From: Candidatus Zixiibacteriota bacterium
GTDB taxonomy: Bacteria; Zixibacteria; MSB-5A5; GN15; PGXB01
NCBI GenBank assembly: GCA_026397505.1
Contig: JAPLUR010000046.1
Span: 1 to 64,000 of the forward strand
Reading direction: 5' to 3'
DNA: 64,000 bases
A program made the translations under genes and the position numbers. The notes under the pieces are model-generated. The model was not told the DNA's origin. It saw only the letters and a list, made by a program, of their open reading frames with translations, and ran no database searches. Shown piece after piece: positions 12,265 to 52,948 of the stretch. The stretch's first letter is position 1; every line of letters begins with the position of its first letter.

Positions 12265-13676
<1,412 letters not shown>

Positions 13677-13754
13677 CTAAGGAGTTAGCTCTTGATCTCT
13701 CTATAAGAGTGGCAAGGGCTAGGTCGACACACTCCCGGTAGAGTTTTTTTCTGC

Positions 13755-13768
13755 CGGTACTTGCTATT
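13755..13768 (+). other. 16S processing stem, 3' strand
   Basis: CGGTACTTGCTATT pairs exactly with the leader segment at 12113-12126, bracketing the 16S for RNase III. Confidence 0.75.
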
Positions 13769-13809
13769 ACCTATAAATCTTGGGCTTAAGATTGGGTTCA
13801 AAAGCTTTT

Positions 13810-13883
13810 GGGCCTATAGCTCAGTTGGTTAGAGCGCGCGCCTGATAAGCGCGAGGTCAGTGGTTCAACTCCACTTAGGCCCA
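13810..13883 (+). tRNA. tRNA-Ile (GAT)
   Basis: Cloverleaf with acceptor GGGCCTA/TAGGCCC, D-arm GCTCAGTTGGTTAGAGC, anticodon loop CTGATAA and T-arm loop TTCAACT. CCA is not encoded. It lies in the 16S-23S spacer, the usual place for tRNA-Ile. Confidence 0.95.
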
Positions 13884-13891
13884 GATTGATT

Positions 13892-13964
13892 GGGGATGTA
13901 GCTCAGTTGGGAGAGCGGTGGCTTTGCAAGCCACAGGTCGCCGGTTCGATCCCGGTCATCTCCA
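13892..13964 (+). tRNA. tRNA-Ala (TGC)
   Basis: Acceptor GGGGATG/CATCTCC contains the G3-T70 wobble that identifies alanine tRNAs; the anticodon loop is TTTGCAA. CCA is not encoded. It follows tRNA-Ile by 8 nt in the rRNA spacer. Confidence 0.95.
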
Positions 13965-13994
13965 TAATAAGGCAAATTGATTTTGCCTCTTAAA

Positions 13995-14055
13995 GCTCTT
14001 TGACAACTTCATATTGTTAGCGTATGTCAATCCTTATTCTGCGGATTGACATACG
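13995..14055 (+). promoter_or_regulatory. spacer boxA and 13-bp hairpin before the 23S
   Basis: boxA copy GCTCTTTGACAAC at 13995-14007, then a perfect 13-bp stem between 14021-14033 (CGTATGTCAATCC) and 14043-14055 with a 9-nt loop. The boxA fits antitermination of the long transcript; the hairpin may be a processing or folding element. Confidence 0.6.
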
Positions 14056-14064
14056 GGCATCTTC

Positions 14065-14092
14065 CAATAGGTTGCACAGAAAATACCTTTGG
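14065..14092 (+). other. 23S processing stem, 5' strand
   Basis: The segment beginning CAATAGGTTGCACAGAAAAT is nearly complementary over about 27 nt to 17165-17192, downstream of the 23S, forming the long stem expected for RNase III release of pre-23S. Confidence 0.65.
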
Positions 14093-14112
14093 TGAACTTG
14101 AGAAAGGTTTTC

Positions 14113-17141
<3,029 letters not shown>

Positions 17142-17222
17142 GATTAAATTTCTTTCTCATAGGCCAAAGGTCATTTTCTTTGCAACCTGTTGAGAGATGC
17201 CCGCAAATGCGCTTAATGTGCG

Positions 17223-17244
17223 CGGCAGATGTCCTCATCTGCCG
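17223..17244. repeat. 9-bp palindrome between 23S and 5S
   Basis: CGGCAGATG (17223-17231) and CATCTGCCG (17236-17244) around TCCT. The GGCAGAT core recurs at 29761-29780, so it belongs to a dispersed palindrome family. Confidence 0.6.
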
Positions 17245-17283
17245 AAATTCGAAATACGCTGACAATATGTCGTGATAAATATT

Positions 17284-17401
<118 letters not shown>

Positions 17402-36084: not shown

Positions 36085-36522
36085 ATGAAGACGTTTATAC
36101 CAAAGATTGAAGAATCAGACAAGAAATGGTACCTGATCGATCTCAAGGGTGCTACGCTGGGTCGAGCAGCGGTCGAGGCGGCCAATATTTTGCGGGGCAA
36201 GAATAAGCCGATATTTACGCCGCACCTTGATACCGGTGATTATTTGGTGGTCATCAACGCGGCCCAGGTGTCGGTGACCGGCAACAAAACAAAGAATAAA
36301 TTGTACTACCATTATTCCGGATATCCGGGCGGGTTGAAGGTTACTCCCTATGATAAACTTCTCAAATCGAACGCCCGTGATATTTTCACCCATGCTGTTA
36401 CGGGGATGCTGCCGAAAAACCGCTTGGGCCGGAAAATGATTAAGAAGCTGCATGTCTATGCCGATGAAAAGCATCCGCATCAGGCGCAGAAACCGGAAGT
36501 GTGGAAATTATCTGAATCCTGA
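36085..36522 (+). CDS. rplM: ribosomal protein uL13
   Basis: 145 aa, full length. Family motifs: the N-terminal W-Y.IDL.G..LGR.A (KKWYLIDLKGATLGRAA), ILRGKNKPIFTPH, GDYLVVINA and NRLGRKMIKKLHVY. A large-subunit protein at the surface near the exit tunnel. GGGGGAAAG precedes ATG; rpsI follows by 12 nt in the usual pairing. Confidence 0.96.
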   Translation: MKTFIPKIEESDKKWYLIDLKGATLGRAAVEAANILRGKNKPIFTPHLDTGDYLVVINAAQVSVTGNKTKNKLYYHYSGYPGGLKVTPYDKLLKSNARDIFTHAVTGMLPKNRLGRKMIKKLHVYADEKHPHQAQKPEVWKLSES

Positions 36523-36534
36523 TAGAGAAAGCAA

Positions 36535-36927
36535 ATGAGCGAAACAATTTTTTCGGCAACCGGAAGAAGAAAAGAATCGGTCGCCCGTGCTATAGTGAGG
36601 GTTGGGGGTGGCCACTTTGTTATTAACGACAAGACTCCCAAGGAATATTTGGGGCGGGGCGTTCTGGTTGATATTATCAATCAGCCGATGAAGGAAACCG
36701 ACACGGTTGGCAAGCTGGATATTGTTTGCCAGGTCAACGGCGGCGGATTAGCCGGCCAGGCCGGAGCTATCCGTTTGGCCTTATCCCGTGCCCTTGCCAA
36801 GCTGGACCCCGACTTGCGTCCGGTCCTGAGAAGAAAAGGATATCTGACCCGGGATCCGCGAGCGGTGGAACGGAAGAAATTCGGTCGGCCCAAAGCAAGA
36901 AAACGGTTCCAGTACTCAAAACGGTAA
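36535..36927 (+). CDS. rpsI: ribosomal protein uS9
   Basis: 130 aa, normal. Motifs: ATGRRKESVARAIVRVGGG near the start, QVNGGGLAGQAGAIRLALSRAL, LRRKGYLTRDPRAVERKKFGRPKARKRFQYSKR, the basic C-terminal tail that reaches the P-site tRNA. Follows rplM as usual. Confidence 0.96.
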   Translation: MSETIFSATGRRKESVARAIVRVGGGHFVINDKTPKEYLGRGVLVDIINQPMKETDTVGKLDIVCQVNGGGLAGQAGAIRLALSRALAKLDPDLRPVLRRKGYLTRDPRAVERKKFGRPKARKRFQYSKR

Positions 36928-37043
36928 TTATAAATATCCGGTTGCGGCCGGAAATGAGCACATTCTGCTGGAGGTCCGGGGGTCCTAATCAGGTCCGGAT
37001 TGGGTGGCAGGATGGAAGCATAACCAATTAGAAAGGTCTACTG

Positions 37044-37814
37044 ATGGTCACTCCACAAATCAAAGAATTGCTTGAAGCGGGTGTTCACTTCGGTCATCAG
37101 ACCAGACGATGGAACCCCAAGATGAAGCCGTTCATTTTCACCGAACGGAACGGCATTTATATCATCGATTTGAACAAGACACTTGATGCCATCAAGATGG
37201 CTTGCCAGAAAGTCAGGGAAGTTGTCTCCCGCGGGCAATCGATACTTTTTGTCGGCACCAAGAAACAGGCCAAGGATGTTGTCAGGGAAGAGGCCATTCG
37301 CGCCGGACAGTTTTATGTCACCGAGCGCTGGCTGGGCGGCATGCTGACTAATTTCTCCACGATCAAAGCTTCCATCAAGAAACTCAAAAACATGGAGCGG
37401 ACGAAGGAAGAAGGGGAGCTGCAGAAATACACCAAGAAAGAGATTTCCCATTTTGAGCATGAGATGGAAAAACTCGAAAAAGCCCTGGGCGGTATTAAGA
37501 ATATGAATTATCTCCCCGGATTGGTCATTGTTGTCGACGCGAAGAAAGAGAAAATTGCCGTGGCCGAGGCTTCACGCCTGGAAATCCCCGTAATCGGGAT
37601 TATTGATACCAATGCCGACCCCGACCCGATTGATTTTCCTATCGCGGCCAATGACGACGCCATCAAGTCCATCCGCATAATAACGCGGACTATTGTCGAC
37701 GCGATCATCGACGCGCAGCATACCATTTCGGATCAGGAGATTGCGGCGGCGGTGGAGGCCAAGACAGCCGATAAGCGGAGCAGTTATGTTTCAGCCGGTG
37801 AAGAGGATATCTAA
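37044..37814 (+). CDS. rpsB: ribosomal protein uS2
   Basis: 256 aa, full length. Motifs: LLEAGVHFGHQTRRWNPKM, the central coiled-coil domain (LKNMERTKEEGELQKYTKKE), and ETD-like C-terminal signatures VIGIIDTNADPDPIDFPIAANDDA. A 30S protein needed for S1 binding. AAAGG precedes ATG. First gene of the rpsB-tsf-pyrH-frr group, a usual order in bacteria. Confidence 0.96.
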   Translation: MVTPQIKELLEAGVHFGHQTRRWNPKMKPFIFTERNGIYIIDLNKTLDAIKMACQKVREVVSRGQSILFVGTKKQAKDVVREEAIRAGQFYVTERWLGGMLTNFSTIKASIKKLKNMERTKEEGELQKYTKKEISHFEHEMEKLEKALGGIKNMNYLPGLVIVVDAKKEKIAVAEASRLEIPVIGIIDTNADPDPIDFPIAANDDAIKSIRIITRTIVDAIIDAQHTISDQEIAAAVEAKTADKRSSYVSAGEEDI

Positions 37815-37829
37815 AGAGGAAAGCGATTC

Positions 37830-38423
37830 ATGGAAATATCAGCACAGAAAGTAAAAGAGCTTCGCGAGAAGACCGGCGCCGGCATGATGGACTGCAAGAA
37901 AGCCCTGATGGAAACCGGCGGCGACTTTGATAAAGCCAGTAACTATTTAAGGGAAAAGGGGATTGCCAAGGCGGCCAGCCGGGCCGGGCGGACGGCCAAT
38001 GAGGGATTGGTGGTTTCTTATATACATCCCGGCGATAAACTGGGGGTTCTTCTGGAGGTCAATTGCGAGACCGATTTTGTCGCCCGGACCGACGATTTCA
38101 GAGTTTTCGCGAAAGATGTCTCGATGCAGATCGCGGCGACGAATCCCCTGGCCATAAAGCGTGAAGATGTTGACCCCAAAGTGGTCGAAGCGGAATCCGA
38201 AATTTATCGTCAGCAGGCTCTCAATGAAGGAAAACCGGAGAAGATTCTGGATAAGATCGTGAGCGGTAAGCTGGATAAGTTTTTCGCCGAGACCTGTCTC
38301 ATGGAACAGCCTTTTGTCAAAGATAATGAGAAGACGATTACCGACCTTTTGAATGATCTGATTGCCAAAATCGGAGAGAATATTACCATTAAGCGGTTTG
38401 CCCGCTTCCGGCTGGGTGAATAA
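37830..38423 (+). CDS. tsf: elongation factor Ts
   Basis: Nucleotide exchange factor for EF-Tu. 197 aa, the short form also known from Thermus-type species, so no loss is implied. Motifs: the N-terminal UBA-like domain [25 protein letters not shown], the TDFVAR loop ([17 protein letters not shown]) that contacts the EF-Tu magnesium site, and EQPFVKD near the end. A good ribosome site, and 15 nt after rpsB. Confidence 0.95.
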
Positions 38424-38425
38424 TT

Positions 38426-39148
38426 ATGGAGTCCGACCGACGTCCGCGATATCACCGGATACTCTTAAAGCTTTCCGGCGAGGCATTAGTCGGTTCGCAA
38501 TCATTTGGTATTGATCTCGATACCATTGAATATATCTGCGCCGAAATTAAAGAGATTAAGGACCTGGGGCTTGAGATGGGTATTGTTGTCGGCGGCGGCA
38601 ATATCTTTCGCGGTGTTGCTGCCTCGCGCACCGGCATGGATCGGGTCACGGCCGATAATATGGGGATGCTTTCCACGGTTATCAATTCACTGGCGCTTCA
38701 GGACAAGCTGGAGCAGTTGGGAATATTCACACGGGTAATGGCGGCGGTCAATATTGAATCATTTGCCGAGCCATATATCCGGCGCCGCGCCATCCGGCAT
38801 ATGGAAAAGGGGCGATTGGTCATTTTGGCGGCCGGCACCGGCAATCCCTATTTCACCACCGACACGGCGGCGGCCTTGCGGGCAACGGAGGTCGATGCCG
38901 AGGTCTTGCTCAAGGCCACCCGGGTTGATGGCGTTTATTCGGCCGATCCGGAAAAAACGCCCGATGCCCTGTTTTATCCCCGGCTGAGCTATATGGAGGT
39001 GGTGCAGAAGGAACTGGAAGTAATGGATTTGACTTCCGTCACGCTCTGCAAGAATAATGGCATTCCGGTCATCGTTTTCAATATCAACAAGGCGGGGAAC
39101 CTGAAAAAGGTGGTTATGGGCGAGCCGATCGGAACAGTCATTTCGTAG
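38426..39148 (+). CDS. pyrH: UMP kinase
   Basis: 240 aa, normal. Catalyses UMP + ATP to UDP + ADP, with allosteric GTP. Motifs: [45 protein letters not shown], and [14 protein letters not shown]. It starts 2 nt after tsf. Confidence 0.96.
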
Positions 39149-39191: not shown

Positions 39192-39608
39192 ATGACTGAT
39201 AAGATTTATAACGATAGCGAAGAAAAGATGAAGAAGAGCTATCAGTCCATCCAGAAGGAATTCGCAGGGCTGCGTACCGGCAAAGCCTCGGCATCACTTC
39301 TGGATAACGTTCGGGTCGATTATCATGGGACTATCAGGCCGCTTAATCAGTTGGCCTCAATATCGGCGCCCGAAATTCGTCTTCTTATAGTCCAGGCATG
39401 GGACAAGACCACTGTCGGTGAGATTTCCAAGTCCATTCAGAAGGCCGACCTCGGCCTCAATCCTCAGGTCGAGGGGAAAAAGGATAAGGCTATCAACGAG
39501 GATGACCATAAAAAAGGAGCCGAAAAGATACAGAAATTGACCGACCATTATATCAGCATGATTGACGACTTAATGGGCAATAAAGAAAAAGAGATAATGG
39601 AAGTCTGA
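39192..39608 (+). CDS. frr: ribosome recycling factor, internally shortened by about 47 codons
   Basis: 138 aa rather than about 185. The N-terminal arm (YNDSEEKMKKSYQSIQKEF, RTGKASASLLDNVRVDYHG) and the end (EKIQKLTDHYISMIDDLMGN) are canonical. But the sequence jumps from ADLGLNPQVEG to KKDKAINEDDHKKG, skipping the stretch that in other bacteria reads about IR.P.PPLTEERRK through RVAVRNVRRDA, the end of domain II and the middle helix of the three-helix bundle. The frame is unbroken, the loss is about 141 nt, and the flanks align. As read, the factor should not fold. The cause (assembly join or real deletion) is unresolved. A terminator follows at 39630. Confidence 0.9.
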   Translation: MTDKIYNDSEEKMKKSYQSIQKEFAGLRTGKASASLLDNVRVDYHGTIRPLNQLASISAPEIRLLIVQAWDKTTVGEISKSIQKADLGLNPQVEGKKDKAINEDDHKKGAEKIQKLTDHYISMIDDLMGNKEKEIMEV

Positions 39609-41581: not shown

Positions 41582-42928
41582 ATGAAAAGAAAGAAAATCA
41601 TAATCATGGGCGCGGCGGGAAGGGATTTCCACAATTTCAACGTGCTTTACCGCAATAACAAGGATGTTGAAGTGGTCGCATTCACCGCCACCCAGATTCC
41701 GGAAATAGAAGGGCGCCGTTATCCCCGGGCGCTGGCCGGTCCGCTCTATCCCAAGGGGATTCCCATTTATCCCGAGGAAGAGCTTCTGGATCTCATTGTC
41801 GAGCATGATGTCGACGAGGTGATCTTCTCCTACTCGGATGTCACTTATGAATATGTTATGGACAAGGCCGCCTATGTGATGGCGACCGGCGCCCGTTTTG
41901 CCCTCGAAGGGGGCGCGCCGACCATGATTAAATCAAGCAAGCCGGTGGTGGCGGTTTGTGCTGTCCGCACCGGCTGCGGCAAATCGCAGACCACCCGCCG
42001 GGTGGCGGCCATATTGCTTGAGATGGGCCTGAAAGTTGTGGCCATTCGGCACCCCATGCCGTACGGCGATCTGGCCAAGCAGGCTTGTCAGCGCTTTGCC
42101 TCTTACGCCGACCTCGAGAAGCACAAATGCACTATCGAGGAGCGTGAGGAGTATGAACCGCATATCGACCGCGGCATTATTGTCTATGCGGGTGTCGATT
42201 ACGAGATGATTGTTCGTCGGGCCGAAAAGGAAGCCGATGTCATTCTCTGGGACGGTGGCAACAATGACATGCCGTTCTATCAGCCCGACCTGTTTATCAC
42301 GGTCGTTGACCCACACCGACCGGGACATGAAATCAGCTATTATCCCGGGCAGAACAATCTGCTGCTGTCGGATGTCATCGTGATCAATAAGATTGACACG
42401 GCGCCGCCGGAGGGGATCAATGAAGTGCGCGATAATATCCAGTATTACAACCCGGATGCGATTGTGGTTGATGCCGCTTCGCCCATCTCGGTCGAGGATG
42501 CGTCGTTGATTCGGGGAAAGAAAGTGCTGGTTATTGAAGACGGCCCGACGACCACTCACGGCGAGATGAAATACGGCGCCGACATGATGGCGGCGATCAA
42601 GTATGGCGCTGCCGAAACGGTCGACCCGCGCCCTTATACGGTCGGCACGATTAAGGCCACCTTTGAGAAATATCCCGAAATCGGGCCGTTGCTCCCGGCC
42701 ATGGGGTATTTTGGGAAGCAGTTGGCCGATCTCGAGAAAACCATTGAACAGACCAAGTGCGATAGTGTCATTGTGGCCACCCCGATTGACCTTCGCCGGG
42801 TAATCAAGATAAAGAAACCCTCGGTGCGGGTTTTCTATGATCTGCAGGAAATCGGCAAGCCGGATCTGGCGGACATATTGCATGATGCATTTAAGCCGGT
42901 CAAGAGCAAAGCCAAAGCAAAGAAGTGA
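41582..42928 (+). CDS. cyclic 2,3-diphosphoglycerate synthetase-like P-loop protein
   Basis: 448 aa. It resembles the cyclic 2,3-diphosphoglycerate synthetase family, and many bacterial members are annotated so although that compound is a methanogen solute; the bacterial role may be different. It has an N-terminal Rossmann-like part (MKRKKIIIMGAAGRDFHNFNVLY), a P-loop in AVRTGCGKSQTTRRVA (about 127-142), and the domain motif DGGNNDMPFYQPDLFITVVDPHR. The alanine/lysine C-terminus is short. The next gene, carbamate kinase, overlaps it by 4 nt, a pairing also seen elsewhere. Confidence 0.8.
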   Translation: MKRKKIIIMGAAGRDFHNFNVLYRNNKDVEVVAFTATQIPEIEGRRYPRALAGPLYPKGIPIYPEEELLDLIVEHDVDEVIFSYSDVTYEYVMDKAAYVMATGARFALEGGAPTMIKSSKPVVAVCAVRTGCGKSQTTRRVAAILLEMGLKVVAIRHPMPYGDLAKQACQRFASYADLEKHKCTIEEREEYEPHIDRGIIVYAGVDYEMIVRRAEKEADVILWDGGNNDMPFYQPDLFITVVDPHRPGHEISYYPGQNNLLLSDVIVINKIDTAPPEGINEVRDNIQYYNPDAIVVDAASPISVEDASLIRGKKVLVIEDGPTTTHGEMKYGADMMAAIKYGAAETVDPRPYTVGTIKATFEKYPEIGPLLPAMGYFGKQLADLEKTIEQTKCDSVIVATPIDLRRVIKIKKPSVRVFYDLQEIGKPDLADILHDAFKPVKSKAKAKK

Positions 42929-45280: not shown

Positions 45281-46441
45281 ATGAAAATACATGAGTATCA
45301 GGCCAAGGAGATATTCGCCGCGGCCCAAATTCCGGTGCCGCTGGGCCAGGTGGCCTCATCGGTGGCTGAGGTAGCCTCGATAGCCGAATCGTACGGCCGG
45401 CCGGTGATGATCAAAGCGCAGGTGCATGTCGGCGGACGCGGCAAAGCCGGCGGCATCCAGTACGCCGCAAATGTTGAAGCCGCCCGTGTCTGGGCCCAGA
45501 AGATTCTGGGTATGGATATCAAAGGTTTGACGGTCAAGAAGGTCCTGGTGACCGAAGCGGCCGATATTGCCAGCGAATCTTATGTCGGGATCATCATCGA
45601 CCGGGCGCAGAAAAAACCGGTGATAATGGTTTCCGCCGCCGGCGGTATCGATATCGAAGAAGTCGCCGCCAAGACCCCGGAGAAAATCATCAAAATGGCG
45701 GTTGACCCGACTACCGGACTCAAGGCTTATCAGGCCCGGGAATTGGCCGGCAAGCTTTATAATGACCCGGCCCTGGTGCGCCAGGCGGCCGATGTCATTA
45801 TGAAGTTGTATGATGTCTATTGGAAAGTGGATGCCTCGCTGGTCGAAATCAATCCGCTTATTACCACCCCCAGCGGTAAAGTGGTCGCCCTTGATGCCAA
45901 GATAAATATCGATGACAACGGCCTGTACCGCCATAAAGATGTGGCCGCTATGCGCGACCTTGATGCCGAGGATCCCTCCGAGGTTGAGGCCCGCGACGGC
46001 GACCTGTCTTTTGTCAAGCTGAGCGGTAATATCGGATGCATTGTCAACGGCGCCGGACTGGCCATGGCCACCATGGACCTGGTCAAGTATTATGGCGGCG
46101 ACCCGGCCAATTTCCTTGATATCGGCGGTTCATCGAATCCGCAAAAAGTCCTCACCGCCATGCGTATCATCCTTCGTGACCAGAATGTCCGGGCCATTCT
46201 AATCAATATTTTCGGCGGTATCACGCGCTGTGATGATGTGGCCAATGGCATTGTAATGGCTTACGAGGAACTGAAACCGGAAATACCGATCGTTGTTCGT
46301 CTGACCGGAACCAACGCAGACAAGGCGAAAGTTATTCTTAAGAAAGTCAATCTGGAATCGGCCGACACCCTTGATAATGTGGTCAAGAAAGCAATTGCGC
46401 TGGCCGAGATTGAGCCGATGGCGGAAGGGAGGATACAATGA
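45281..46441 (+). CDS. sucC: succinyl-CoA synthetase, beta subunit
   Basis: 386 aa, normal. ATP-grasp plus CoA-binding domain. Motifs: N-terminal [22 protein letters not shown], the [10 protein letters not shown] loop, [24 protein letters not shown] (metal site) and [17 protein letters not shown]. Partner of sucD, whose ATG overlaps the sucC stop. Opens the citric-acid-cycle gene run. Confidence 0.95.
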
Positions 46442-47454
46442 GCATCCTCATTAATAAAAAGACGAAAGTCATAGTGCAGGGAATAACCGGGCGCGACGGT
46501 TCTTTTCACGCCGAGCAGATGAAGAAGTACGGTACCAATGTTGTCGGCGGGGTAACTCCCGGAAAAGGTGGTACCGAGGTCAATGGTATTCCCGTTTTTA
46601 ACAGTGTGGCCGATGCGGTGGCCAAAACCAAAGCCAATACTTCGGTCATATATGTGCCGCCGTCATTTGCCATTGATGCCGTTTATGAGGCGGTCGATGC
46701 CGGGATATCGCTGATCGTCTGCATCACCGAGGGCGTCCCGGCCAACGATATGCTGAAAGTCTATGATTATGTAAGAAGCCGCGGGGCACGGCTGATCGGT
46801 CCCAACTGCCCCGGATTAATCTCGCCCGGCGAATCGAAAGTCGGAATCATGCCGGGAAGCATTGTCAAAAAGGGGCCGGTGGGAGTCGTTTCCCGCTCGG
46901 GAACGCTTACTTATGAAGCAATCTGGGCGCTGACCTGCGCCGGAATAGGGCAGACTACCTGCATCGGCATCGGCGGCGACCAGATTATCGGCACCAATTT
47001 CATCGATACCCTGGAATTGTTCGAGGCCGACCCGGCCACGAAGGCGGTGGTGATGATCGGCGAAATCGGCGGCACCGATGAAGAAATGGCGGCTGAATTT
47101 GTCAGAAAGAAAATGACCAAACCGGTGGTCGGCTTTATTGCCGGAAGGATGGCCCCGCCTGGAAAAAGAATGGGTCATGCCGGAGCAATTATTTCGGGCG
47201 GTTCGGGAACGGCCAAAGAGAAGATTGAAGCTTTGAACAAGGCCGGGATTCCGGTGGCTGTCTCGCCGACGGAAATCCCTGCTCTTATCAGAGAGAAGAT
47301 GCAGGCGGCGGCCAGAAAGCCTGCCGCGAAAAAGGCCGCGACGGTTAAAAAAGCAAAAGGCATCGGGAAAGTAAAACCGGGCAAAGCAATAATGACCAAA
47401 AAACAAAGAATCGCCCCCAAAGCCCGAAAGGTCGGAGCAAAAAAGAGGAAATAA
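46438..47454 (+). CDS. sucD: succinyl-CoA synthetase, alpha subunit with lysine-rich tail
   Basis: 338 aa. Residues 1-290 are the usual alpha subunit: [19 protein letters not shown], CoA site, [15 protein letters not shown] and the phosphohistidine in [12 protein letters not shown]. Residues about 290-338 are an added tail rich in lysine and alanine ([18 protein letters not shown]...[13 protein letters not shown]), unlike the family and like histone H1 or bacterial basic tails. The tail is in the same frame with no break. Its meaning is unclear; it may bind nucleic acid or the partner complex. Starts with ATGA overlap of sucC. Confidence 0.95.
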
Positions 47455-47501
47455 GATAATCTGACTATAAATCAGAGATTATCTCCGAAGGAGAGATCAT
47501 T

Positions 47502-47762
47502 ATGACTGAGACCAATCCGAAACTTGATGTTTCGGAGAAAGAACCTTCTGCAAATGACAAATATGCAGGGAAATTACCTCCGCTGAATATATTCCTGCAT
47601 TGGTGTAAGGGGTGCAATATTTGCATTGCTTTTTGCCCCAATAAGGTTCTGGAGCCGGACCGTGACGGAAAACCGATTCTGGCTCACCCCGAAAAATGCA
47701 CACAATGCGCGATCTGCTGGTTGCACTGTCCGGATTTCGCCATAACCTCCAATTATAAGTAG
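47502..47762 (+). CDS. korD: 2-oxoglutarate ferredoxin oxidoreductase, delta (ferredoxin-like) subunit
   Basis: 86 aa with two [4Fe-4S] motifs: WCKGCNICIAFCPNK and KCTQCAICWLHCPDF. It feeds electrons between the catalytic subunits and free ferredoxin. It precedes korA by 13 nt. AAGGAGA precedes ATG. An imperfect hairpin of 10 bp lies just upstream at 47455-47483. Confidence 0.9.
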   Translation: MTETNPKLDVSEKEPSANDKYAGKLPPLNIFLHWCKGCNICIAFCPNKVLEPDRDGKPILAHPEKCTQCAICWLHCPDFAITSNYK

Positions 47763-47775
47763 CGGAGGAGGAAAG

Positions 47776-48921
47776 ATGAAAAACATAAATATGGAAAAGG
47801 CCAGACTACTACAGGGAAATGAGGCCTGCGTCCAGGGGGCGCTTTATGCCGGAATCCAATTCTTCGCCGGCTACCCCATTACCCCCTCGACGGAGATCGC
47901 CGAAGGGCTGGCGCGCGAACTACCCAGGATCGGCGCGAAATTCATTCAGATGGAGGATGAGATCGGTTCCCTTGCCGCTGTCATCGGCGCCTCCAATGCC
48001 GGCTGCAAGGCGATGACCGCCACCTCGGGTCCGGGATATTCGCTGATGCAGGAACATATTGGTTACGCTTATATCACCGAAACCCCGTGCGTGATTATTG
48101 ATGTTCAACGGGGCGGTCCCTCGACCGGTCTGCCGACAAAGGTGAGCCAATCCGATACCATGCAGGCCCGCTGGGGAACGCATGGCGATTATACGGCTAT
48201 CGCCGTGGCGCCCTCATCGGTCAGGGAAGTCTTCGAGGAAACGGTCCGGGCCTTCAACCTGGCGGAGCGGTTTCGCACCCCGGTCACGGTTCTGACCGAT
48301 GAAGTTCTCGGGCATATGCGGGAGATGATGGTCATCCCCGAAAAGGGTGAATTGGAAATAGTCAACCGCAAGAAGCCGGACGTTCCCACCGATTGGTACA
48401 AACATTTTGATTTGACGGCCGATTTTGTCAGTCCGATGGCGGCTTTTGGCGAAGGATATCGCTACAATGTCTCCGGGTTGACCCATGACCAGGAGGGGTT
48501 CCCCACCGCGGTACCTTCAGAAATAAAAGAAAAACTCGACAAGTTAAGAAACAAAATAGAGCGGTTCTCGGATGAGATCTTTAAGATGCGGACAGAGATG
48601 ATGGATGATGCCAGAATCGCCGTAATTTCATATGGATCGGTGGCGCGGGCCTCCTATCAGGCGGTCAAGATAGCCCGCGAAAAGAGAATCAAAGTCGGCG
48701 CTATTCAGCCGCTGACCATCTGGCCCTTCCCGGATGCTCAACTGCGGCAGATGCTGAGCGGTGTCAAGAAAGTAATCGTAGCCGAACTCAATATGGGGCA
48801 GATGGTTCATGAAGTGCGCCGCGTGGCTCCAAAAGGAACCGAGGTGTTTTTCATGGGAAGGTATGATGGTGAAGTTATGACCCCGCAGCAAATTGTCAGC
48901 AAAATAGGGGAGGTGAAGTGA
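47776..48921 (+). CDS. korA: 2-oxoglutarate ferredoxin oxidoreductase, alpha subunit
   Basis: 381 aa. The pyrimidine-binding domain (FFAGYPITPSTEIAEGLA, FIQMEDEIGSLAAVIGAS, ATSGPGYSLMQEHIGYA) and domain III (IAVISYGSVARASYQAV) follow the family order. The enzyme turns 2-oxoglutarate + CoA to succinyl-CoA with ferredoxin reduction, and can run in reverse in reductive TCA. It overlaps korB at the stop. Confidence 0.93.
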   Translation: MKNINMEKARLLQGNEACVQGALYAGIQFFAGYPITPSTEIAEGLARELPRIGAKFIQMEDEIGSLAAVIGASNAGCKAMTATSGPGYSLMQEHIGYAYITETPCVIIDVQRGGPSTGLPTKVSQSDTMQARWGTHGDYTAIAVAPSSVREVFEETVRAFNLAERFRTPVTVLTDEVLGHMREMMVIPEKGELEIVNRKKPDVPTDWYKHFDLTADFVSPMAAFGEGYRYNVSGLTHDQEGFPTAVPSEIKEKLDKLRNKIERFSDEIFKMRTEMMDDARIAVISYGSVARASYQAVKIAREKRIKVGAIQPLTIWPFPDAQLRQMLSGVKKVIVAELNMGQMVHEVRRVAPKGTEVFFMGRYDGEVMTPQQIVSKIGEVK

Positions 48922-49769
48922 TGACTACCGAAGTACAACATTCCGATATAACCCACCACTACCTGCGTGCCAAGAAGAAATTTCCGAATGTCTGGTGTGC
49001 CGGATGCGGCAATGGGATTGTCATGGGCGCTCTTATCCGGGCGATTGACAAACTCGGCTTGGACAAAGACAACGTGGCGATCGTCTCCGGCATCGGCTGC
49101 TCCAGCCGCATGCCGGTATATATGGATTTCAATACCCTGCACACGGCTCACGGGCGCGCCCTGGCCTTTGCCACCGGCGTGAAGATGGCCAAGCCGTCTA
49201 TGAAAGTGATCGTGATCACGGGTGACGGCGATGCGCTGGCGATCGGCGGGAATCATTTCATCCACGCCTGCCGGAGAAATATTGACATCACCACTATATT
49301 GGTAAATAATCGCATTTATGGCATGACCGGCGGCCAGTTTTCGCCTACGACCACCGGCGGCGCCATTGCCACGACCGCCCCTTACGGCAACTATGAGAAG
49401 CAGTTTGATGTGGTCAATCTGGCCACCGCCGCGGGGGCATCATACGTAGCGCGCGGCACCGTTTATCATGTTCAGCAATTGGAGAAGTTGATTGAGGGCG
49501 GTATTACCAAGAAGGGTTTTGCACTTATCGAGGCGGTTTCCAATTGCCATACCTATTACGGCCGGCTCAATCGCGAGGGTGATGCTGTGGCCATGATCAG
49601 CTGGATGAAAGAGCATGCCATGCCGATTCAGGCAGCGGCCAAACTTCCCCCCGAAAAGATGGTGGGGAAATTCGTGACCGGACTTATTCATGAAACTAAT
49701 GCCACCGAATTCTGCGAGGAGTACGACAAGCTGGTTGAACGGTTGGCGGCGAAGGAGGCGGGCAAATGA
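48921..49769 (+). CDS. korB: 2-oxoglutarate ferredoxin oxidoreductase, beta subunit
   Basis: 282 aa. ThDP-binding subunit: WCAGCGNGIVMGALIRA, ITGDGDALAIGGNHFIHACR with the paired LVNNRIYGMTGGQ, and GCSSRMP. GGGGAGG 7 nt upstream selects ATG 48921, which overlaps the korA stop by one base. The same operon holds korD, korA and korC. Confidence 0.93.
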   Translation: MTTEVQHSDITHHYLRAKKKFPNVWCAGCGNGIVMGALIRAIDKLGLDKDNVAIVSGIGCSSRMPVYMDFNTLHTAHGRALAFATGVKMAKPSMKVIVITGDGDALAIGGNHFIHACRRNIDITTILVNNRIYGMTGGQFSPTTTGGAIATTAPYGNYEKQFDVVNLATAAGASYVARGTVYHVQQLEKLIEGGITKKGFALIEAVSNCHTYYGRLNREGDAVAMISWMKEHAMPIQAAAKLPPEKMVGKFVTGLIHETNATEFCEEYDKLVERLAAKEAGK

Positions 49770-50341
49770 CACCGAAAAGCTCAGCCAAAAAGAAAGAAGA
49801 TCGTTTCGAACTACGGTTCTCCGGTTCGGGCGGACAGGGATTGATCCTGGCCGGGGTGATGCTTGCGGAGGCGGTCGGCACGGGTGACGGCAAGAATGTC
49901 GTACAGACCCAATCGTACGGCCCCGAGGCGCGCGGCGGCGCCAGCCGCTCCGATGTGGTTATTTCCGAGGGGGAAATCTACTACCCCAAGACAATGAAAC
50001 TGGATCTCCTGCTGGCCCTGACTCAGGAAGCCTGTGATAAGTACTTTGCCGATCTCAAGGAAGACGGCATGCTGGTGGTCGACTCGGTCATGGTCACCCA
50101 GGTTCCCACCAAGAACTATTACAGTTTTCCCTTTGTAAGGCTGGCCCGAGAGGAGATCGGACATGTGATGGTGGCCAATGTTATCGCGCTCGGCGCCATT
50201 GCGGAGCTGACCGATATTGTCTCGCGGGAAGCCCTGAAAAAAGTGGTCCTGCGTCGGGCGCCGCGCGGTACCGAGGAGAAAAATCAAAAGGCCCTGGAAC
50301 TTGGGTTTGCCATCGCCAAGAAAGTCAAAAAACAAAAGTAG
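49766..50341 (+). CDS. korC: 2-oxoglutarate ferredoxin oxidoreductase, gamma subunit
   Basis: 191 aa. The family motif FSGSGGQGLILAGVMLAEAV at the N-terminus and the SYGPEARGGASRSDVVIS loop are complete. It overlaps the korB end by 4 nt (ATGA). Confidence 0.92.
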   Translation: MTPKSSAKKKEDRFELRFSGSGGQGLILAGVMLAEAVGTGDGKNVVQTQSYGPEARGGASRSDVVISEGEIYYPKTMKLDLLLALTQEACDKYFADLKEDGMLVVDSVMVTQVPTKNYYSFPFVRLAREEIGHVMVANVIALGAIAELTDIVSREALKKVVLRRAPRGTEEKNQKALELGFAIAKKVKKQK

Positions 50342-50356
50342 ACAGTGGAGAAATGT

Positions 50357-50755
50357 TTGGAGAGAACCCTTCTCATCATCAAACCTGATGCGGTCAGACG
50401 CAACCTGATCGGTCATATCATCGCCCGGCTGGAAATCGCCGGATTCCGGCTCAGGGAGATGCGTATGGAAACGCTCCCACCTGAGCGGGTGAGGAGATTT
50501 TATGCGGTGCATGAGGGGAAACCTTTTCTTGACTCGCTGGTCGAGTTTATGTCTTCCGGCCCGGTAGTGGCAATGCTTCTCGAAAAGGAGAACGCCATTA
50601 TGGACCTGAGGACATTGATAGGTGCGACTGACCCGTTAAAGGCGGCATGCGGGACACTTCGGCAAGAGATCGCTTTGGATGTGCAGCAGAATTCGGTCCA
50701 CGCCTCCGATTCGGTGGAAAGTGCCGCAAAGGAAATACCATTTTTCTTTGGATAG
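50357..50755 (+). CDS. ndk: nucleoside diphosphate kinase
   Basis: 132 aa. With start TTG 50357 it begins MERTLLIIKPDAVRRN, the family's usual N-terminus, 6 nt after GGAG. The phospho-histidine is in NSVHASDS near the end, and the KPF.DSLVEFMSSGPVVAM segment is typical. It balances NTPs, and its place beside succinyl-CoA synthetase, which can make GTP or ATP, is a sensible pairing. The GTG 50345 would add four residues. Confidence 0.94.
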   Translation: MERTLLIIKPDAVRRNLIGHIIARLEIAGFRLREMRMETLPPERVRRFYAVHEGKPFLDSLVEFMSSGPVVAMLLEKENAIMDLRTLIGATDPLKAACGTLRQEIALDVQQNSVHASDSVESAAKEIPFFFG

Positions 50756-50764
50756 GCCGAATGA

Positions 50765-51988
50765 ATGGTTGTCACGATCAGTTATGGTGACATCAAGCTG
50801 AGACTGGAATTGCCCGACCCGGTAGATTTCGACGAATTTGAATGCTTGGCGGGGGAGGATGCCATAGAGTACGATAGTTTTGTCTCTCAGTTGAAACAGG
50901 CCGAAATAGACCGCTTTAATGTATATTTGGCCGACCTTTTCATATTAAATGATGCCTTTCGTCCGACGCCGACTTCAACCATTCTGGAATGGCTGCATGC
51001 CGGGGGAAAGCTTTCCCCTGAAGCAAGGTTCTTAATCTCCACCGGCGCTCATGCTCGACCGACGGAGGCACACCTGAAAAAGATATTGGGGGCTCTGTAT
51101 GGCGAATTGAAGGATCGAACGCTGGTGCATGATGCCGGGGACAGGGAAAACCTGGTGGAGGTCGGTCGGGAAGCGGGAAATCAGGCAGTTTCAGTAAATC
51201 GATATTTCCTTGAAGCGAAAAGGGTGGTGGTGATAGGCTCGGTGGAGCCGCATTACTTTGCCGGCTTCAGTGGCGGACGAAAATCGATCTTTCCCGGTCT
51301 CTGCGATTACGAGACCATTGTTCGCAACCATAACCGCGCGGTCAGCTTTGATGCCGCCCCGATGAAATTGGAGGGTAACCCTGTTGATGAGCATTTGCAA
51401 TCGCTTATGAGATTGATTCCGGCAGGCAAGATTCTCAGCATTCAGGCGGTCGGCGGGAGTGGCGGCCAAATCAGAGGAATTTTCTGCGGCACTCTTGAGA
51501 GTACTTTCCAAAGGGCGGTCGATTACGCGCGCAAAATATATGGCCTCAAAGCCAGGCACGAATATGATTTGATTCTGGCTGAAGTCCGCCCGCCGCTTGA
51601 CAGCAATCTATACCAACTTCAGAAATCGCTGGAAAACTGCCAGCAGGCGATTGCGGACGGCGGAACGATCATCCTCTTTTCTCCCTGCGGCGGAGGAGTC
51701 GGCTCGGAGAGTTTTTATGGACTAGCGGACAGATGGCAGCCGGGTGTTGCTTTGGACGACCGCGCCGGTGATTTCTTCGGCATTCATAAGTTACATCGCA
51801 CTAAGGTCATAGGCGGAAGAATTAATGTATTTCTTTATTCCGAGCTGCCTCCGGGCGTTCCCGAAAAAGTCTATTTTAAAAGTGCTGCAAAACCGCAGGA
51901 GATTGTATATAATATAGCATCAAATAAGAAGAATCCTAGAGTCGCCCTGGTGCACGATGCCGGGCATGTAGTTTTGACAAAGGAATGA
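50765..51988 (+). CDS. LarA-family (nickel-pincer racemase superfamily) protein
   Basis: 407 aa. It has the LarA-family fold and motifs: ILNDAFRPTPT (aspartate 63, arginine 66), STGAHARPT, GSVEPHYFAGFSGGRKSIFPG (His 163, and Lys 173 at the position that carries the nickel-pincer nucleotide) and His 189. The lysine usually in the PKD.NLYQ motif is a leucine here (RPPLDSNLYQLQKS), so it may not be a lactate racemase. Substrate unknown; the operon neighbours are TCA enzymes, so malate or another 2-hydroxyacid is a fair guess. No larB, larC or larE is in the window. Confidence 0.85.
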   Translation: MVVTISYGDIKLRLELPDPVDFDEFECLAGEDAIEYDSFVSQLKQAEIDRFNVYLADLFILNDAFRPTPTSTILEWLHAGGKLSPEARFLISTGAHARPTEAHLKKILGALYGELKDRTLVHDAGDRENLVEVGREAGNQAVSVNRYFLEAKRVVVIGSVEPHYFAGFSGGRKSIFPGLCDYETIVRNHNRAVSFDAAPMKLEGNPVDEHLQSLMRLIPAGKILSIQAVGGSGGQIRGIFCGTLESTFQRAVDYARKIYGLKARHEYDLILAEVRPPLDSNLYQLQKSLENCQQAIADGGTIILFSPCGGGVGSESFYGLADRWQPGVALDDRAGDFFGIHKLHRTKVIGGRINVFLYSELPPGVPEKVYFKSAAKPQEIVYNIASNKKNPRVALVHDAGHVVLTKE

Positions 51989-52021
51989 CAACCTATCACT
52001 AATAAACTCTTTGGAGGAACC

Positions 52022-52948
52022 ATGAATAAGAAAATCGCTGTTATCGGAGCGGGAAATGTCGGCGCTTCGGTTGCCCAGTATCTGGCCGAGGCCAATCTGG
52101 CCGACATCGTAATGGTTGATATCATCGAAGGAATCCCTCAGGGAAAAGCACTCGACCTGACCCAGGCCGGGCCGGTTCGGGGGTACAACTGCCACCTGAC
52201 CGGGAGTAACGACTACAAGGATATCAAAGGAGCCGATATCGTGGTCATGACCGCCGGTCTGGCCCGTAAGCCGGGGATGTCCCGTGAGGATCTGCTCAAG
52301 ATGAACGCCGATATTGTCGGCATGGGCGCTGACAATATCAAGAAACATGCTCCCAAGGCATTTGTTATCGTCGTCACCAATCCGCTGGATATCATGACTT
52401 ATCATGCTTTCAAGAGAACGGGTTTCGCGCCCCACCGCGTCTGCGGCCAGGCCGGCATTCTCGATTCCACCCGTTTTCGCACTTTCGTAGCTATGGAGTT
52501 GAATATTGCCATGTCCGACGTGCAGGCAATGGTAATGGGCGGCCATGGCGATACCATGGTGCCGCTTCCTCGCTATACCACGGTCGGCGGCGTACCTATC
52601 AGCGAGCTTATCCCGGCCGAGCGGATTCAGGCCATATCCGACCGCACCCGTGACGGCGGCGCGGAAATCGTGAAGCTGCTCAAGTCCGGTTCGGCCTATT
52701 ATGCCCCCGGGGCGGCCACGGTTGAGATGGTGCGCGCCATCCTGCTCGATGAAAAGAGACTGATCCCGGTTTCAGCTTATCTGAACGGAGAGTACGGCAT
52801 GAAAGACCTCTATATTGGCGTTCCCGTTGTCCTCGGCGCCGGCGGTGTGGAGAAAGTGATCGAATTGAAACTGAATAAGAAAGAGCTCGATATGCTTACC
52901 AAGTCGGGCACAACATACAAAGGATTTCTGAAAGAAATCGGCTACTAA
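52022..52948 (+). CDS. mdh: malate dehydrogenase
   Basis: 308 aa of the LDH-like MDH type. NAD motif [18 protein letters not shown] with an acidic VMVDI ending, substrate arginines in [10 protein letters not shown] and [10 protein letters not shown], and the catalytic histidine in [13 protein letters not shown]. It interconverts malate and oxaloacetate. A good ribosome site (GGAGG) precedes ATG. Confidence 0.94.

Follow-up and report, generated by a model that had tools for sequence, protein, structure and literature searches.

The window analysed here, a stretch of 64,000 nucleotides from a Candidatus Zixiibacteriota bacterium, carries an unusually short frr gene for the ribosome recycling factor (RRF). 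The locus raises the question of whether such a gene belongs to the living organism or only to its assembled sequence. As assembled, frr occupies 39192–39608 on the forward strand, an open reading frame from ATG to TGA (stop codon included) encoding 138 aa, with the N-terminus MTDKIYNDSEEKMKKS and the C-terminus NKEKEIMEV. The product matched the Pfam RRF family (PF01765, 7e-35) in two stretches, with 120.7 bits against a cut-off of 29.7. In the search of the whole genome assembly (G000), these stretches covered profile positions 2–77 and 124–164, each above the cut-off alone, and positions 78–123 were absent, so the gene falls short of the approximately 164 profile positions and 185 aa expected of a full-length RRF. 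It was found at its usual spot after rplM-rpsI-rpsB-tsf-pyrH. The intact upstream neighbour is pyrH (38426–39148, forward strand), which served as the yardstick of divergence rate. Before it, at 36085–38423 on the same strand, lie genes that are intact, in the usual order and syntenic with the related genome G006, and which by their translations are rplM-rpsI-rpsB-tsf. The window frr thus has the conserved operon context with pyrH and tsf, which are present in 54 and 50, respectively, of the frr loci of 55 relatives.

The preliminary description of this DNA reported an in-frame loss of about 47 codons at the join LNPQVEG / KKDKAINEDD. Our alignment with the family's 185-aa proteins indicated that the join was correctly described and that the gap is exactly 47 residues (97–143), in frame, and the only one in the gene. 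The retained N-terminal part (39192–39476, forward strand) corresponds to RRF residues 1–95 and comprises helix 1 together with the greater part of domain II; 73–78 of its 95 residues are identical to those of the five nearest relatives. It is followed by the junction codon AAA (K96, 39477–39479), a hybrid of the codons flanking the missing 141 bp, and by the retained C-terminal part (39480–39605), which corresponds to the last helix (residues 144–185) and shares 30–37 of 42 residues with the same relatives.

The frr products of 52 of the 55 relatives are 184–187 aa long, three are longer (191–228 aa, depending on the start codon) and none is shorter. A comparison with 60 kb of the single-contig relative G006 gave strong matches for 35 window genes. 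Most of them kept their order and were 50–90% identical, and frr was the only one with a gap of more than 6 aa, so a generally poor contig was rejected. As none of the 55 relatives has a shorter frr and no other compared window gene has such a gap, the length of the window frr is not chance variation. A profile search found an RRF match in 121 of the 133 genomes of the phylum. When G000 is left aside, 119 of the 120 matching genomes span the whole profile, and in the last (G070) the match is cut at a contig end. In this comparison with related genomes, which the preliminary description had called for, the gap was seen in no other genome of the phylum set, and a lineage trait was rejected. Among complete E. 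coli genomes, 5394 of 5426 had an frr match, and 5393 of these spanned at least 80% of it in one place; the sole partial match was split by the record start. One other genome of the phylum set, G042, has two RRF matches; the second (G042:C212:3362-3862) is divergent (180 bits vs 218) and may represent either a paralogue or contaminating sequence.

Several other features of the window may be mentioned. A full rRNA operon (16S, two tRNAs, 23S and 5S) lies at 12265–17401 in the same 76-kb contig. Fragmented metagenome bins seldom contain one, and it would permit 16S-based naming. The gene at 41582–42928 encodes a 448-aa protein that is 84% identical to that of G006 and has no Pfam match at 1e-10; judged by its sequence, it may be a nucleotide-binding protein similar to cyclic 2,3-diphosphoglycerate synthetase, and its gene precedes one of the amino acid kinase family. 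A cluster at 45281–52948 includes succinyl-CoA-ligase-like, 2-oxoacid:ferredoxin oxidoreductase-like and lactate/malate dehydrogenase genes. The lactate-racemase-like gene of this cluster (50765–51988) is just 51% identical to that of G006, while its neighbours are 76–90% identical.

It is reported that RRF consists of domain I, a three-helix bundle, and domain II, which is attached through flexible linkers (PMC9067457). AlphaFold modelling of the full-length RRF of the closest relative placed strand 97–101 and helix 107–144 in the lost stretch. The gap thus removes the last strand of domain II and the entire middle helix of the bundle, in agreement with the earlier reading of the loss as the end of domain II plus one domain I helix. 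That reading had also placed invariant arginines in the missing segment, and six were found there (R99, R109, R110, R129, R132 and R133), including the conserved middle-helix arginines R129, R132 and R133. Of the 21 residues invariant among 47 aligned proteins, 11 fall within the gap, and the lost part is better conserved than the retained part (mean frequency of the commonest residue 0.78 vs 0.65). The mean pLDDT was 82.5 and the pTM 0.60 in the model of the full-length relative. For the 138-aa protein these values were 66 and 0.39, and residues 88–105, around the join, were below 50. The model built two long helices, compared with three in the relative, so the expected failure to form the three-helix bundle was borne out. 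In the known fold the middle helix runs the chain from the hinge to the tip, and without it the last helix presumably cannot take its native place; the lost helix of 38 residues would measure about 57 Å, and the remaining linker is probably too short to span this distance. In this form, the 138-aa protein would not function as an RRF, the factor that, with EF-G, splits ribosomes after termination.

The junction lies at 39477/39478 or 39478/39479, two equivalent placements with one base shared. The relatives mostly read GGN AAY AT (GGNAAY) on the left side and GCC GAA AAR (GAAAAR) on the right side, and the window join reads GGG AAA AAG. No direct repeat of at least 10 bp was found within 39380–39580, and a search of the window that tolerated up to 3 mismatches gave no second copy of the junction 19-mer. 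The preliminary description had proposed GGGGAAAAAGG as a short homologous run behind an assembly error. This proposal was not supported, as the breakpoints share at most one base and there is no local repeat. The run is a product of the join and not its cause, because the two equivalent breakpoints differ by one base and no repeat of at least 10 bp is present. On the same grounds we rejected an origin by slippage, or by collapse during assembly, at a direct repeat. With a 1-bp overlap and no repeat, an assembler that joins on shared k-mers is unlikely to have made the join without a molecule carrying it. This speaks against a simple assembler collapse and suggests that the join was present in one or more molecules, be it through a chimera in the library, an infrequent variant or a genuine deletion.

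The divergence of the retained part bears on the age of the lesion. Identity to the five nearest relatives was 0.82, 0.78, 0.80, 0.80 and 0.76 for the retained RRF, and 0.80, 0.80, 0.82, 0.82 and 0.83 for pyrH. With the tree topology fixed, the window RRF had a terminal branch of 0.111 and pyrH one of 0.087; the ratio of 1.27 was within the spread of the other genomes, and the excess of RRF divergence over expectation was not significant (P = 0.08). The family-invariant columns showed one departure, E to K at the hybrid junction codon K96. The retained frr contains no stop codons, and, with no significant excess divergence either, a decaying pseudogene was ruled out. Because the divergence is similar to that of pyrH and the only departure is at the junction codon, the retained frr shows no sign that selection was relaxed or that compensating changes arose. 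Decay would be expected in a gene that had been broken ever since the sister genera split off, and changes near the join in one remodelled for function without the helix. As neither was seen, the lesion is either very recent relative to the branch or absent from the organism.

Taken together, we consider that the organism probably has a normal 185-aa RRF and that the assembled sequence shows the 47-codon gap because of an artefact or because a minor variant was captured in it. We infer that an intact frr exists in the living population. The short path may have entered the contig from a library molecule that was chimeric or bore the deletion, through an error in a consensus of low coverage, or from a defective variant of the strain present at low frequency. 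In favour of this are the full RRF profile in all but one of the other matching phylum genomes and the near-universal intactness of frr in E. coli. Conservation is higher in the lost part than in the retained part, and the unscarred state of the retained residues is what one would predict for a lesion absent from the lineage. It is reported that frr is essential in E. coli and that RRF depletion leaves ribosomes blocked at stop codons (PMC7538156). With a single change within the lost helix, V117D, E. coli is no longer viable at high temperature (PMC7196661). On the other hand, no mechanism for such an artefact is visible, with 1 bp shared and no local repeat; the frame is kept, for which the chance expectation is one in three; and the assembly is not generally careless, as the other compared genes have no gap of more than 6 aa. 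That a free-living bacterium has the 138-aa RRF only, and recycles its ribosomes through it or through HflX alone, seems very improbable to us.

It is unlikely, in our estimate, that a real and recent in-frame deletion inactivated RRF and that HflX and the remaining splitting machinery sustain the cells. HflX supplied in trans rescued the growth of an RRF-depleted S. aureus strain (PMC7196661), but that strain was depleted, with a leaky promoter, and was not null, and RRF is essential in E. coli, which perhaps has no effective backup (PMC7538156). The HflX of G000 is intact (351-position model, 1.1e-131) and three G000 proteins have EF-G domain IV; however, most of the relatives whose frr is full-length also have this HflX, and G004 and G006 likewise have three EF-G-like proteins. 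As relatives with normal frr share both, no compensation by an extra EF-G or HflX was seen in G000. The homology-free join is typical of illegitimate deletion and fits this explanation.

A deletion that is real, with an intact frr elsewhere in the cell that was lost from the assembly or bin, seems quite unlikely. The G000 assembly consists of 3.4 Mb in 147 contigs, from which some sequence is probably missing, but its completeness is estimated at 100% (contamination 3.6%). The family profile and a relative's full protein, used as queries, found no second RRF gene in the 147 contigs and matched the window gene alone. A 48-aa query for the missing segment had no match in any of the 147 contigs, while the same query hit its target in eight of eight relatives tested as a positive control. 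The second frr suggested earlier is therefore not in the G000 assembly, and a split gene with its segment elsewhere was also ruled out. Two RRF matches are, moreover, seen in only one other phylum genome.

Finally, it is extremely doubtful that the gene encodes a genuine compact RRF, functional without the middle helix and the last domain II strand through, for example, dimerisation or strand swapping: the kept frame, all other family-invariant residues, the absence of stop codons and a deletion that closely follows the bounds of strand 97–101 plus helix 107–144 would agree with this, but no other phylum member has such a form, the invariant middle-helix arginines are gone, the AlphaFold model has low confidence, no compensating substitutions occur at invariant columns, and the remaining linker probably could not replace the lost helix.

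If the deletion were real and fixed, this bacterium would live without a normal ribosome recycling factor, and a backup by HflX would be directly testable. If the gap is an artefact, an assembly estimated at 100% complete and 3.6% contaminated can hold a broken essential gene that is not flagged by marker counts.

Comparison with known systems places the gap in context. The RRF of E. coli (frr b0172), like the relatives' full-length protein, has 185 aa and aligns without gaps, so that the numbering is transferable; it has the last domain II strand, the middle helix and the arginines, whereas the window protein is without them. The frr of G006 (L015), from the same bacterial family, has its place in rpsB-tsf-pyrH-frr, its start and its end in common with the window gene and is 82% identical over the 138 shared residues, and residues 97–143 are missing in the window only. 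The RRF chain of PDB 1y69, with 113 aa, is also a shortened RRF; its structure on the ribosome has been solved, and it is without domain II. In contrast to that chain, the window protein retains the larger share of domain II, and what it loses from domain I is a helix.
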